Origin: Bacteroidota bacterium
GTDB lineage: Bacteria > Bacteroidota > Bacteroidia > Bacteroidales > NBLH01
DNA length: 64,000 nucleotides
Direction of reading: 5' to 3'
NCBI GenBank assembly: GCA_025361565.1
Contig: JANYKN010000154.1
Span: 62,001-126,000, forward strand
Of this stretch, positions 2,270 through 5,690 are shown in pieces. The translations under genes were made by a program, and so were the position numbers. How positions within the stretch are numbered: the first letter of the stretch is position 1; each line of letters opens with the position of its first letter. The notes below the pieces were generated by a model. It ran no database searches. It was not told where the DNA came from and worked only from the letters and a program-made list of their open reading frames with translations.

Positions 2270-3040
2270 TCAAAACCTCAAAGAAAGACAACTCAACCCA
2301 CCATCCAATTTTTGAAATTCAGAAACGTCAACTTCAATAACTGAATATCCAGCTTTTTCTATTTTCTTCAACGTTTCAGGAAATCCTTTTGGAACAAGAA
2401 CATTTCCGTTTACCCATAAAGAATTAGCTGAATATGAATCCTTTTCATCAACAAATATCCTATTGAATTTTTCAAATTCTTTCATTTCAACAAATTCACC
2501 AGTAACCAAAAGGTTATTTCCTTCAAGATAAGATAATCCTGTTTTTAGATGAAGCATTTTTTTTAAAGGAACAGTTGAACCTGTTAATTCATAACGTTCA
2601 AGGATTGCAATTAACTGATCGGCGCCAGCATGATTTGTTCTTTCAGAAAGGCCAATATAATAATGACTACCAACCATCATCACATCGCCGGCATCTAAAG
2701 TTCCGGGATATTTAATCTCACCCATATTTTTGTAAAACTCCAATAAAATTGGCCTCATTCCTGTTTTTTCACCGTTTCGGGATTCTGCTCCAGGGTTTGT
2801 AATTACGGCACAATTTGGAGTGCATAAAGCAACATCTTCAATAAAACATGAATCCGGAAATCTATTATCAGGTTGCAATACAGTTACATTCAAACCACAA
2901 TCTGCTAGTACTCTTGTGTAATTATGGTGCTGTTCCAACGCTTTTTTGTAATCGGGTTTACCTAAATTTGCACTGGTTATTCCTTCAACCATTTCAGCAC
3001 AAGGTCTTCTGACGATTGCATTTCTAAATATTTTTTTCAT
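2270..3040 (-). CDS. Dimethylargininase/amidinotransferase-superfamily hydrolase (DDAH-like)
   Basis: 256-residue protein of the guanidino-group-modifying superfamily (DDAH, arginine deiminase). The family attacks a guanidine carbon with a Cys thiolate; DDAH converts N-omega-methylated arginines to citrulline plus methylamines. Visible signature residues: FPDSCFIED (substrate-binding acidic residues), GTLDAGDVM, HLKTGLSYL (catalytic His region) and GGLSCLSLRF at the C-terminus with the nucleophile Cys251. The ATG at 3040 is chosen over an upstream TTG at 3061 because MKKIFRNAIVRRP matches the family N-terminus. Substrate cannot be fixed from sequence: an arginine deiminase or citrulline-related activity remains possible. 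It stands alone, followed by a hairpin at 2134. Confidence 0.85.
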   Translation of the reverse strand: MKKIFRNAIVRRPCAEMVEGITSANLGKPDYKKALEQHHNYTRVLADCGLNVTVLQPDNRFPDSCFIEDVALCTPNCAVITNPGAESRNGEKTGMRPILLEFYKNMGEIKYPGTLDAGDVMMVGSHYYIGLSERTNHAGADQLIAILERYELTGSTVPLKKMLHLKTGLSYLEGNNLLVTGEFVEMKEFEKFNRIFVDEKDSYSANSLWVNGNVLVPKGFPETLKKIEKAGYSVIEVDVSEFQKLDGGLSCLSLRF

Positions 3041-3199
3041 TTTTATTGCTTTTAAGATCAATGCATTGTTTTGTTAAATTCTTCAAAAAAATGATCGCTT
3101 GGGAAAAATCGGAAATAAAAATCTTTCTACCAAAATAATAGGGTTTAATGTCTTTGAAAACATATTTCACCAAGGCAAATATAGAAAATTTGCTAAAGT

Positions 3200-3254
3200 T
3201 TAACAATGCTTAACATCCATTATGTTTGCTTAACCATATTTCGACCTACATTTG
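3200..3254 (+). promoter_or_regulatory. Promoter and phased TTAA array, unit 1
   Basis: TTAA-type boxes start at 3200, 3210, 3220 (TTAT) and 3230, exactly 10 bp apart. A -33 TTTG at 3225-3228 is followed after 18 bp by a perfect -7 box TACATTTG at 3247-3254. This is the upstream control region of the first small-RNA unit. Confidence 0.8.
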
Positions 3255-3258
3255 TCTC

Positions 3259-3345
3259 AGAGATAAACACAAAAAGATTTTTTTCATAACAGGTTAGGTT
3301 TAGGTTTAGGTTAAAACTGCTCAAGAAATCGGGCAGTTTTTTTTT
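3259..3345 (+). ncRNA. Predicted small RNA, tandem unit 1
   Basis: Transcription is predicted to begin about 5 bases after the -7 box at 3254. The transcript holds a conserved leader (AGAGATAAACAC, an A-run, GATTTTTTTCATAA), a G-rich stretch with four GG pairs (3292-3310) and a terminator: AAAACTGC (3313-3320) pairing with GCAGTTTT (3333-3340), followed by T9. No start codon or useful reading frame is visible, so it is called non-coding. The exact 5' end is estimated. Confidence 0.7.
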
Positions 3346-3449
3346 GTATAAACCTGATATTAATCATCAATAAATTTTCAAATCTCTTAAATTTCATAAA
3401 TATTATTTGCTCAACAATTACAAATTTATTTATAGAAATTCGCAAAAAT

Positions 3450-3504
3450 TTAACAATACTTAACATCCATTAAGTTTGGTTAACGCTATTTCAACTTACT
3501 TTTG
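3450..3504 (+). promoter_or_regulatory. Promoter and phased TTAA array, unit 2
   Basis: TTAA boxes at 3450, 3460, 3470 and 3480, all perfect. -33 TTTG at 3475-3478, 18-bp spacer, -7 TACTTTTG at 3497-3504. Every landmark is exactly 250 bp downstream of its equivalent in unit 1. Confidence 0.8.
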
Positions 3505-3508
3505 CCTC

Positions 3509-3590
3509 AGAGATAAACACAAAAAGATTTTTTTTCATAACAGGTTAGGTTTAGGGTTAAAACCGTTCAAGAAATTGGGCGGTTTTTTTT
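3509..3590 (+). ncRNA. Predicted small RNA, tandem unit 2
   Basis: Same architecture as unit 1: conserved AGAGATAAACAC leader, A-run, T-rich stretch ending CATAA, then AGGTTAGGTTTAGGG, then a terminator with loop TTCAAGAAATTGG. Its stem is ACCG/CGGT where unit 1 has ACTG/CAGT, a compensatory change. T8 closes the unit at 3590. No reading frame is seen. Confidence 0.7.
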
Positions 3591-3707
3591 ATTAAATTAA
3601 TCCAACAAACTTAATTTTATAATTAATTATCTGTTTAATAATCTTCATAATTATTGATTTCATTGACTTATATAGCAATTGTTATGATTAAATAAATTTC
3701 CGAAAGT

Positions 3708-3762
3708 TTAACTAAGCTTAACATCCATTAAGTTTGGTTGACGTTATTTCATTATACTTTTG
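3708..3762 (+). promoter_or_regulatory. Promoter and phased TTAA array, unit 3
   Basis: TTAA boxes at 3708, 3718 and 3728 plus a diverged TTGA at 3738, still exactly 10 bp apart. -33 TTTG at 3733-3736, 18-bp spacer, -7 TACTTTTG at 3755-3762. Confidence 0.8.
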
Positions 3763-3766
3763 TTTT

Positions 3767-3854
3767 AGAGATAAACACAAAAGATTTTTTTCATAAAAGG
3801 TTTAGGTTAAGTTAAGTTTTTAAGCCGCTCAAGAAATTGGGCAGCCTTTTTTTT
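3767..3854 (+). ncRNA. Predicted small RNA, tandem unit 3
   Basis: Leader AGAGATAAACAC and GATTTTTTTCATAA are conserved. The G-rich part is shorter and altered (AAGGTTTAGG). The terminator stem (AAGCCGC with GCAGCCTT) is imperfect, with one mismatch and one bulge, ending in T8 at 3847-3854. This copy is decaying slightly in the stem but its promoter is perfect. Confidence 0.65.
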
Positions 3855-3967
3855 GTTATAATTGATTGGAATTTATTTATATAAGATTAAATCTCAAAAC
3901 ATTCAACATTCCTGAATAAATTGATTTTAAAAGTATAATTCTATAATTCATGAAAAATAGACGAAGT

Positions 3968-4022
3968 TTAACAATGCTTAACGTTTGTTAAGTTTGCTTA
4001 ACTTTTAATTCCTTTATTTTTG
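3968..4022 (+). promoter_or_regulatory. Promoter and phased TTAA array, unit 4
   Basis: TTAA boxes at 3968, 3978, 3988 and 3998, all perfect at 10-bp pitch. -33 TTTG at 3993-3996, 18-bp spacer, -7 TATTTTTG at 4015-4022. Confidence 0.8.
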
Positions 4023-4026
4023 AAAA

Positions 4027-4101
4027 GGGATAAACAAAATGGATTTTACATAACTGGTGAAGGATTTCTTCAAACTGCTCAAATTTGAGCAGTTTTTTTT
4101 T
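4027..4101 (+). ncRNA. Predicted small RNA, tandem unit 4 (most diverged)
   Basis: The most diverged copy. It keeps GGGATAAACA, GGATTTTACATAA and a strong terminator: AAACTGCTCAAA (4072-4083) pairs perfectly with TTTGAGCAGTTT (4084-4095) as a long hairpin, then T9 to 4101. An ATG at 4039 opens only four codons, so it is not protein-coding. Confidence 0.65.
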
Positions 4102-4133
4102 GCATAAAATGGACCTGATTAATTATACGAAAA

Positions 4134-5690
4134 TTACCAATCTATTGGAAAATAATCTTTTAAAAACTTACCATTCCAATGTTTGCCAGTAAGAATGCCA
4201 TCAATAAAAGGATCACAAACCCGGGCAGCTCCATCAACAATATCAAGGGGAGGTTGAAAATCATGGTATTCCTGTTTGAATTTGGCCAAATCAACTGGAT
4301 CTTCATCTGTTACCCAACCTGTATCCACTGCATTGGTATAGATTCCGAATTGTGCCAAATCGCCTGCAGCAGTATGGGTTAACATATTCAAAGCAGCTTT
4401 GGCCATATTGGTGTGTGGATGACGGCTTTCTTTGGTAAACCGATAAAATTTACCTTCCATAGCTGATACGTTGACAATGTGTTTTTTTCCTGTAAAATCC
4501 TTTTTCATTAGGTTTACCAAACGATTTGAAAGTACAAAAGGAGCAATGGAATTGACCAATTGAACTTCGATCATTTCCGGAGTTTCAATATCGCCGAGTT
4601 TTAAGCGCCAGCTATTGGTTTTACGTAAGTCAACTTGTTGTAAATCAGCATCCAATTTTCCTTCAGGGAATACTTCATTTGCTACAACGGAATTATCAAA
4701 ACTATAAGGTATTTGAGATAATTTGGCCGATGAAGTAATTCCAATCCCCGGTTCTTGTCCATGCCACGTTACTGGAATGGATGAATTTGAATCATTTTCG
4801 GAGTGGATATATGTTTTTAGAACATTGACGCATTCCTGATGGTTGCTGAGCAGTTGTTTTACTTCCTTTGTGTGTTCATTAAAAGCCAAACTTTCTTTTT
4901 CCATAAGATGCCCATAAAAACCAGGTGGCCTGCGAACTGTTTGAGCTGCATTATTGATTAATATATCTAATCTGTGGTATGTTTGAAGAATATAATTTGC
5001 AAATAGCTCTACACTTGGTATATGGCGCAAATCCAATCCATAAATTTTTAAACGGTGTCCCCATTCCGAAAAATCAGTTTCTTTGGCATACCGTGTAGCC
5101 GAATCTACTGGAAAACGGGTTGTTGCAATAACAGTTGCTCCAGACCGTAACATCAGTAATGTAGCATGATAACCAATTTTAAGCCTTGAACCTGTTATTA
5201 AGGCTACTTGTCCAGTTAAATCACAAACTTGAAAACGTTTTGCATAATTAAAATCGGCACATTTTGGGCACATGGAATCGTAAAAATGGTGCACTTCTGT
5301 ATAAAGATCTTTGCATACATAGCAGTTTCGGGGAGAATCAAGTATTTTTTTCTCTTCGTCAAGCTCAATCTGGTCTAAAGCCAGTTGAATAGGAGCCTCA
5401 AAAACAGTTGCAATTCTTGCGGAACGAATTCCTGTTTTAGCTCTCGCTTTTCTGTCATTCTCAACCTTTGACTGCTTTTTTACCAATTTAACGCCTTGGT
5501 TTCTTTTTTTGATTTCGGCACGATCCGGCCTTGAAATTTGACCGGCAGCTTTCATAAGTGCAATTCGTTTTTCTTCACTTAAAAGCGTCAATTGATCTCC
5601 ATTTTCTAGCAATTGCTCTAATATTGAAATACATTGTTCAAGTTCTTGTTGGGTGAGCTTCTTGTCTTCGGGTGTTTTATTCGTCTCCAT
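4134..5690 (-). CDS. SDR-family protein with zinc-binding Cys pairs, catalytic Tyr absent
   Basis: 518-residue protein. The N-terminal ~110 residues are charged and helical. Next comes a CYVC...CPKC pair (C-x2-C twice, about 22 apart) likely binding zinc, then a Rossmann short-chain dehydrogenase domain. Its nucleotide-binding loop is TGSRLKIG (family usual TGxxxGIG) and it has LINNAAQT (NNAG motif) and VNVSAMEG with the conserved Ser. The YxxxK active-site position reads T-N-M-A-K in [10 protein letters not shown]: Lys is kept but Tyr is replaced. A roughly 100-residue insertion sits between the NNAA and Ser segments. Likely an NAD(P)-binding oxidoreductase-fold protein; whether it is a redox enzyme is uncertain. 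A minus-strand -7 box TATCTTTG lies at 5717-5724. Confidence 0.8.

Follow-up and report, generated by a model that had tools for sequence, protein, structure and literature searches.

FopS comprises 14 paralogous small RNAs (sRNAs), reported from Bacteroidaceae (Bacteroides thetaiotaomicron), that pair at the start of SusC mRNAs and block translation. Their role as SusC translation repressors is experimental, their action is counteracted by the RRM-domain protein RbpB, and a possible unknown activator under bile salts is also described (PMC11697453). GibS, discussed in the same paper, has two seeds and another promoter, and the term tandem is absent from the main text (PMC11697453). In E. coli, OmrA (88 nt) and OmrB (82 nt) are sibling sRNAs encoded in tandem; EnvZ and its response regulator control them, and they repress outer-membrane proteins through a conserved 5' region; they are Hfq-dependent, number two copies, and belong to enterobacteria (PMC4211561). 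We use OmrA/OmrB as a functional analogy in outline, and no sequence relation is claimed.

The window (the whole 64,000-nucleotide stretch of DNA that was analyzed) carries four plus-strand modules spanning positions 3200-4104, between a gene of the arginine deiminase/DDAH family (2270-3061, minus strand, divergent from unit 1) and a short-chain dehydrogenase (SDR) family gene (4134-5690, minus strand, convergent with unit 4). As the first-pass annotation had described, the units follow each other at a pitch of 250, 258, and 260 bp; all four have TTTG, 18 bp, and a TAnnTTTG -7 box; and the leader reads AGAGATAAACAC in units 1 to 3 and GGGATAAACA in unit 4. The phased TTAA array that it had reported was present in every unit and could be refined to an exact 10-bp period, with boxes at -55, -45, -35, and -25 relative to the end of the -7 box and one degenerate box each in unit 1 (at -35) and unit 3 (at -25). 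The promoter of unit 1 (u1; 3200-3254, 0 mismatches to the genome search pattern given below) has TTAA boxes starting at 3200, 3210, and 3230, a degenerate TTATG at 3220, TTTG at 3225-3228, and the -7 box TACATTTG at 3247-3254. Its predicted sRNA (3259-3347) consists of the leader (3259-3277), a core antisense to SusC starts (3278-3314), and a terminator hairpin (3313-3340) followed by a T-run. Unit 2 (u2) has a four-box array and the -7 box TACTTTTG (promoter 3450-3504, 0 mismatches) ahead of a predicted sRNA at 3509-3592, with core 3528-3559 and terminator 3559-3586. In unit 3 (u3), the last array box reads TTGAC and the -7 box is again TACTTTTG (3708-3762, 1 mismatch); the predicted sRNA lies at 3767-3856 (core 3785-3815, terminator 3827-3842). 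Unit 4 (u4) combines a four-box array and the -7 box TATTTTTG (3968-4022, 0 mismatches) with a predicted sRNA at 4026-4104, in which the seed has diverged (about 4044-4066) and the terminator lies at 4072-4095.

The T-rich core ending in CATAA, said to be common to the units, was kept in u1 to u3, and unit 4 deviates in the likely seed (TTTTACATAACTGG). Terminator-like hairpins were found at four sites, all on the plus strand, against 0.4 (sd 0.9) in shuffled sequence. Counted from the predicted starts, the transcripts would be 79-90 nt long, near the 75-90 nt first proposed. Modules of u1 to u3 are 80-86% identical among themselves and 69-71% identical to u4, whereas the spacers show 52-61% identity between units, within the range of 30 shuffles each. 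There is no open reading frame of at least 80 aa within 3062-4133, and among the short frames of 3101-4150 the longest, a minus-strand frame that starts at 3466, has 51 aa. The maintenance of promoter, core, and terminator between decayed spacers supports the earlier view of separate transcription units, and the window units, with their predicted starts, are very probably sRNA genes. The decayed spacers also agree with the earlier statement that the units are not one repeat spreading; this needs qualifying, as local duplication can create neighboring copies: in a genome of the same genus (G006), which has four tandem copies at 204-205 bp, the middle pair is near-identical, and so is the DNA preceding each of the two. 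In a consensus fold of five copies, base pairs were confined to the terminator and the 5' part was unstructured. Single folds paired some of the 5' region, with a mean unpaired probability for the seed of 0.57 in u1 and 0.44 in u3, so that the seed would be partly free.

The four copies noticed at first are part of a larger set: nine family members were counted in this genome, eight by model and one by eye. A fifth close copy (u5) lies at C48:31891-31976, near a gene that we take to be eno. The sixth, at C92:131616-131696, shares the core and has a different leader and terminator; it is directly upstream of a repressor gene and a peptidase gene (G000:C92 about 131.6-133.6 kb, L084 5617-7552), which by eye we take to be BlaI-like and BlaR1-like, respectively, and in genome G003 the sRNA copy is likewise followed by such a gene start (MNELTK; L085). 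Two further copies are in tandem on C185 near 93.5 and 93.8 kb (about 93.5-93.9 kb, L198 2992-3398), beside a presumably amylase-like gene; their core reads TTTTTTATA(A/G)CAGGTTTGGTTTAG, and the complement of the start codon is lost. The ninth copy, on C185 near 77.0 kb, was located from its promoter alone and recognized by eye from its core and hairpin. It is absent from the match lists of R1 and of R2, a sequence-only model without base pairs, and the R1 match there is on the opposite strand.

That promoter signature was searched across the 6.76-Mb genome as the -55, -45, and -25 boxes plus the -7 box. With no more than one mismatch allowed, eight sites matched; 12 simulated genomes with the second-order composition of a 400-kb sample averaged 0.25, and the sample itself contained 0 matches. 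By reading, all eight sites lie just upstream of family sRNAs, seven of them already known and one found blind (C185:76959-77013, minus strand), which is followed by ATTTTCATGTAGGTTTTAGGTTAG and by a strong hairpin with a T-run. None of the eight belongs to the C92 copy. Allowing two mismatches added two sites, neither preceding a family RNA, and at three mismatches the promoter signal ended, since the reversed control matched more often than the pattern (98 versus 54).

The first-pass annotation had left the family unrecognized. Its closest described relative is FopS (RF04319), by matches below the gathering score only: no Rfam family matched in the window at the gathering threshold, and sub-threshold RF04319 matches were obtained for u2 (24.6 bits), u3 (23.1 bits), and u1 (18.8 bits) against a gathering score of 56, with none for u4. 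RF04319 found nothing in this genome at E<=0.01. Copies in the same genus scored 29-35 bits, intermediates in other families scored 31-42 bits, and the gathering score was exceeded in 55 of 295 genomes of the order. Sub-threshold hits of PyrR, mir-8186, and Phe_leader to u4 lay mainly on the terminator hairpin and were rejected. In relatives, partial matches to GibS (RF04182) and BTnc231 (RF04180) were weak (31.5 bits in G006 and up to 26.5 bits in G065), far below the gathering scores of 115 and 80.4.

The units might simply be FopS, that is, diverged RF04319 members with nothing of their own. They share its plan of a 5' part with a complement of the SusC start followed by a Rho-independent terminator, its multicopy nature, and its sigma-ABfr-type promoter (TAnnTTTG). 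Complementarity of the seed to the SusC start holds for u1, u2, u3, u5, and the C92 copy (weakly for C185, not for u4). Tandem copies are found for FopS too, three at 243-254 bp in genome G138, and this genome encodes one RRM_1 protein (81.5 bits), a putative RbpB. A 10-bp TTAA pair also precedes 14 of 30 FopS loci (from 15 families as labelled), with 0.8 expected and none of 300 shuffles giving as many; 12 of the 14 pairs start at -74 to -76 before the match, among 31 spacings examined. One locus, G016:C53 at about 37.4 kb, is matched by both R2 (E 1.1e-4) and RF04319 (42.2 bits). Several features nevertheless set the window family apart: all scores are below gathering, R2 at E<=1 misses all 30 FopS loci, and the seed contains CAUAA rather than CAUGGU. 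A leader of about 19 nt separates the predicted start from the core, whereas the FopS seed is at the very 5' end. There are up to four array boxes, nearer to the -7 box (-55/-45/-35/-25) than the FopS pair (about -75/-65 before the match). The hosts also differ, a genus whose named members are Bacteroidales metagenome-assembled genomes (MAGs) in one case and, as reported in PMC11697453, Bacteroidaceae in the other. We therefore regard plain FopS membership as unlikely and, given the sub-gathering scores and the failure of R2 to find FopS, treat the window family as a probable FopS-type variant and not as a FopS member, despite the intermediates and the shared TTAA pair.

Tandem hits in other genomes had been named in advance as support for a family, and tandem copies were found outside this genome. 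Within the genus, whose named members are Bacteroidales MAGs, genome G005 has two copies at 195 bp in addition to the G006 array, and other copies were found in same-genus genomes. In G005 and G002, the sRNA copies have tRNA genes as close neighbors, about 55 bp away or less (L081 131-206, L086 877-952). R2 matched in 143 of 295 genomes of the order at E<=0.01. This number should not be taken as a tally of family members, since several of the 29 loci read lacked core or terminator or looked like a gene start on the other strand. Among the best loci read from the R1 matches in 80 genomes, most were a terminator without the core; some minus-strand loci in that set were viewed on the wrong strand, of which L038 and L039 were read again on the correct one. 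By eye, we retained 20 loci outside the genus that show both core and hairpin. As labelled, they come from 15 families, and they comprise 17 of the 29 R2 loci plus L200, L038, and L039. Dropped loci belonged to the same genus (L169-L171), had no core (L178, L182), were cut by unread bases (L189), or had an unclear terminator or gene-like surroundings (L180, L184, L191, L193, L195); L191 had passed the script's core and T-run flags, and L190 and L196, both kept, had failed the T-run flag. Tandem pairs occur outside the genus in G016 (193 bp) and G230 (301 bp). Relatives of the window RNAs, some of them tandem, thus appear to be present in other Bacteroidales families.

SusC mRNA starts (AACCTAAA...TTATGAAAAAA), when reverse-complemented, look similar to the core UUUUUUUCAUAACAGGUUAGGUUUAGG, as does a start like AACCTAAACCTAACCTGTT-ATG-AAAAAA; the u1 seed is CAUAACAGGUU. 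The exact form CCTAAACCT-N0-8-ATGAAAAA occurs five times in the genome, always on family sRNAs, so pairing with mRNAs must be interrupted. Duplex energies were computed on 18 SusC/RagA genes above the family cut-off in this genome, with starts chosen by a script that favors ATGAAA-type starts, which may help pairing; at least one start (L140) looks misplaced. Mean energies were -19.6 (u1), -18.0 (u2), -17.6 (u3), -17.5 (u5), and -18.1 kcal/mol (C92), compared with -10.9 to -12.4 (sd about 1) for dinucleotide-shuffled sRNAs, and for each of the five none of 60 shuffles was as good. The core alone reached -17.1 (0 of 60 shuffles as good), and the leader alone showed no excess (42 of 60). Unit 4 was at shuffle level on SusC starts (26 of 60), and the three C185 copies had a weak excess (2, 1, and 4 of 60). 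The u4 seed (window 4044-4066) would pair with GTTATGTAAAA, in which ATG stands directly before TAA, which makes it unlikely that u4 acts at an ordinary start codon. On 129 sampled genes with a crude signal-peptide score, mean energy was only -11.9 to -14.2. The start context fits as well: 13 of the 18 SusC starts here read TT-ATG, matching CAUAA, and in G138, 5 of 15 read CC-ATG, three of them ACC-ATG, matching the FopS CAUGGU.

These RNAs could have a main function other than SusC repression: their core would mimic a complement to A-rich Bacteroidota starts in general (ATGAAAAAA), and their targets would be other secreted-protein or lipoprotein mRNAs. The starts of 326 sampled genes (which may include the 2 of 18 SusC genes that lie in the 400-kb sample) were slightly favored, u1 and C92 beating all 40 shuffles on the mean; u5 was not better than the best shuffles on this set. 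Pairing is stronger for ATGAAA genes that have a signal-peptide score than for genes lacking one (u1, -15.3 versus -12.4), and many of the 25 best sampled genes of u1 begin like secreted proteins. SusC starts, however, beat those signal-peptide ATGAAA genes by 3.6-4.5 kcal/mol for u1, u2, u3, u5, and C92; AACCTAA is commoner in the 30 nt before the start in SusC genes (6 of 18) than in sampled genes (3 of 326); and pairing is best within each genome, as the swap test below indicates. A mainly non-SusC function seems improbable to us, and action of u1 to u3 on SusC starts is the likely reading of these pairing data.

In the swap test, five RNA cores were each paired with SusC-type starts of three genomes: 18 from this genome, 9 from G006 (of 11 loci tried, from 26 matches; three of the nine above the family cut-off), and 15 from G138 (of 55 matches). 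Every core had its best z on its home genome, with values of -2.1 to -4.5 elsewhere. For u1, z was -6.1 at home and -3.1 and -3.8 away; for u3, -7.0 and then -3.4 and -2.6; and for C92, -5.9 and then -4.5 and -2.5. The G006 core g6b scored -5.4 in G006 (-4.1 and -2.1 away), and FopS scored -5.5 in G138 (-4.2 and -3.9 away). By raw energy, the lowest value in each genome also belonged to a home RNA, narrowly in two (FopS -16.2 versus u1 -15.9 in G138; g6b -16.2 versus C92 -15.6 in G006); in our genome, g6b (-16.1) was below u3 and C92. With three genomes being few, the swap test supports, and does not prove, co-evolution of sRNA seeds with SusC starts.

A mobile repeat, perhaps moved by a REP-type transposase and carrying promoter and terminator without a cellular role, would account for the finding that copies in two genomes adjoin different genes, and u5 lies just downstream of a gene (L004 5168-5770) that, by eye and from an SNHLHMI motif, we take to encode a REP-associated tyrosine transposase. 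We judge this very improbable: promoter, core, and terminator have been preserved between spacers that are no more alike than shuffled DNA, the best fit of the seeds is to SusC starts of their home genome, and the DDAH and SDR genes are the only genes of at least 80 aa adjoining the window array. That the minus strand is the gene, encoding tiny secreted peptides starting MKKIF, is hardly credible even though the reverse complement reads like a signal-peptide start, since the T-strand run length changes between copies (7, 8, 7, 4, 9), so that a frame is not kept, and terminator-like sites are on the plus strand only.

The TTAA array was compared among relatives. In u1 to u5 and the G005 and G002 copies, TTAA stands at -55, -45, sometimes -35, and -25 (u3 without -25); the C92 and G003 copies have it at -56 and -46 and the G006 copies at -78, -68, -56, and -46, and the G004 copy has no such array. 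For the 20 loci outside the genus, TTAA pairs were tested at 32 spacings against 400 shuffles. Spacing 10 occurred at 5 loci (1.6 expected; 5 shuffles as many), spacing 20 at 6 loci (1.6 expected; 3 shuffles), and spacing 31 at 5 loci (1.4 expected; 0 shuffles); spacing 30 was unremarkable (3 loci, 1.4 expected, 58 shuffles). The -7 box was absent in 6 of the 20, and in the 14 with a box, a hand count placed 17 of 33 TTAA between -80 and -20 exactly at -55/-45/-35/-25, so that the same phase recurs at several loci of other families. We consider it probable that the array has a single activator. Direct repeats at 10-bp steps that extend to the -35 region are what an OmpR-family response regulator would be expected to bind, and an OmpR-type activator is suggested for this reason, a proposal for which we see the balance as even. 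Phosphate starvation, an initial guess at the signal from the TTAAC repeats, was set aside, and a literature search yielded no RprY motif. Riemerella belongs to a different class of the phylum Bacteroidota. The one Bacteroidota precedent that we met is PhoP, a response regulator of Riemerella anatipestifer: the best-conserved part of its DAP-seq motif is TTTAACA, which the window array GTTTAACAATGCTTAACAT shares; its sites are not tied to sRNAs in the parts of PMC9603813 that describe them (PMC9603813).

Computation shows the modules and copies, the promoter signature, SusC complementarity well above controls, and better pairing within than across three genomes; transcription, a translational block, an activator and the signal it answers to, and whatever part the RRM protein plays are inferred. 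Our best reading, which we think likely, is a regulon of SusC-repressing FopS-type sRNAs under one candidate activator, perhaps OmpR-like. A common activator would bind the phased TTAA array and switch on the array-bearing copies together through the TAnnTTTG promoter. The core of u1 to u3 would pair over the start codon and 5' UTR of SusC/RagA mRNAs, ribosomes could then not start, and fewer outer-membrane importers would be made under the inducing condition. Tandem copies would provide dosage and speed. The plain redundancy or dosage control raised earlier fits unit 4 poorly, because its seed has changed; with promoter and terminator kept and the SusC seed lost, u4 may have another target or be decaying.

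More tentatively, and with somewhat more doubt than belief, we propose an importer brake across the order Bacteroidales. A single response regulator would read the phase-locked TTAA array, with mainly anti-SusC sRNAs of the FopS kind as its outputs, comparable to EnvZ-OmpR with OmrA/OmrB. The array would be the site of the activator considered in the FopS paper, seeds would co-evolve with host SusC starts, and copies such as u4 would break away to new targets. These results suggest that FopS-type RNAs are spread over many families of Bacteroidales, beyond the reported Bacteroidaceae; they show tandem arrays and provide a promoter element at fixed positions from which one family sRNA was predicted blind. 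Two questions become testable: what induces these RNAs, and how their seeds co-evolve with the many SusC starts that a genome carries. By eye, many of the 30 FopS promoters (L107-L136) also have, downstream of the TTAA pair and ahead of the -7 box, an inverted repeat similar to ATGTTnTATAACAT, a possible site for a second regulator.
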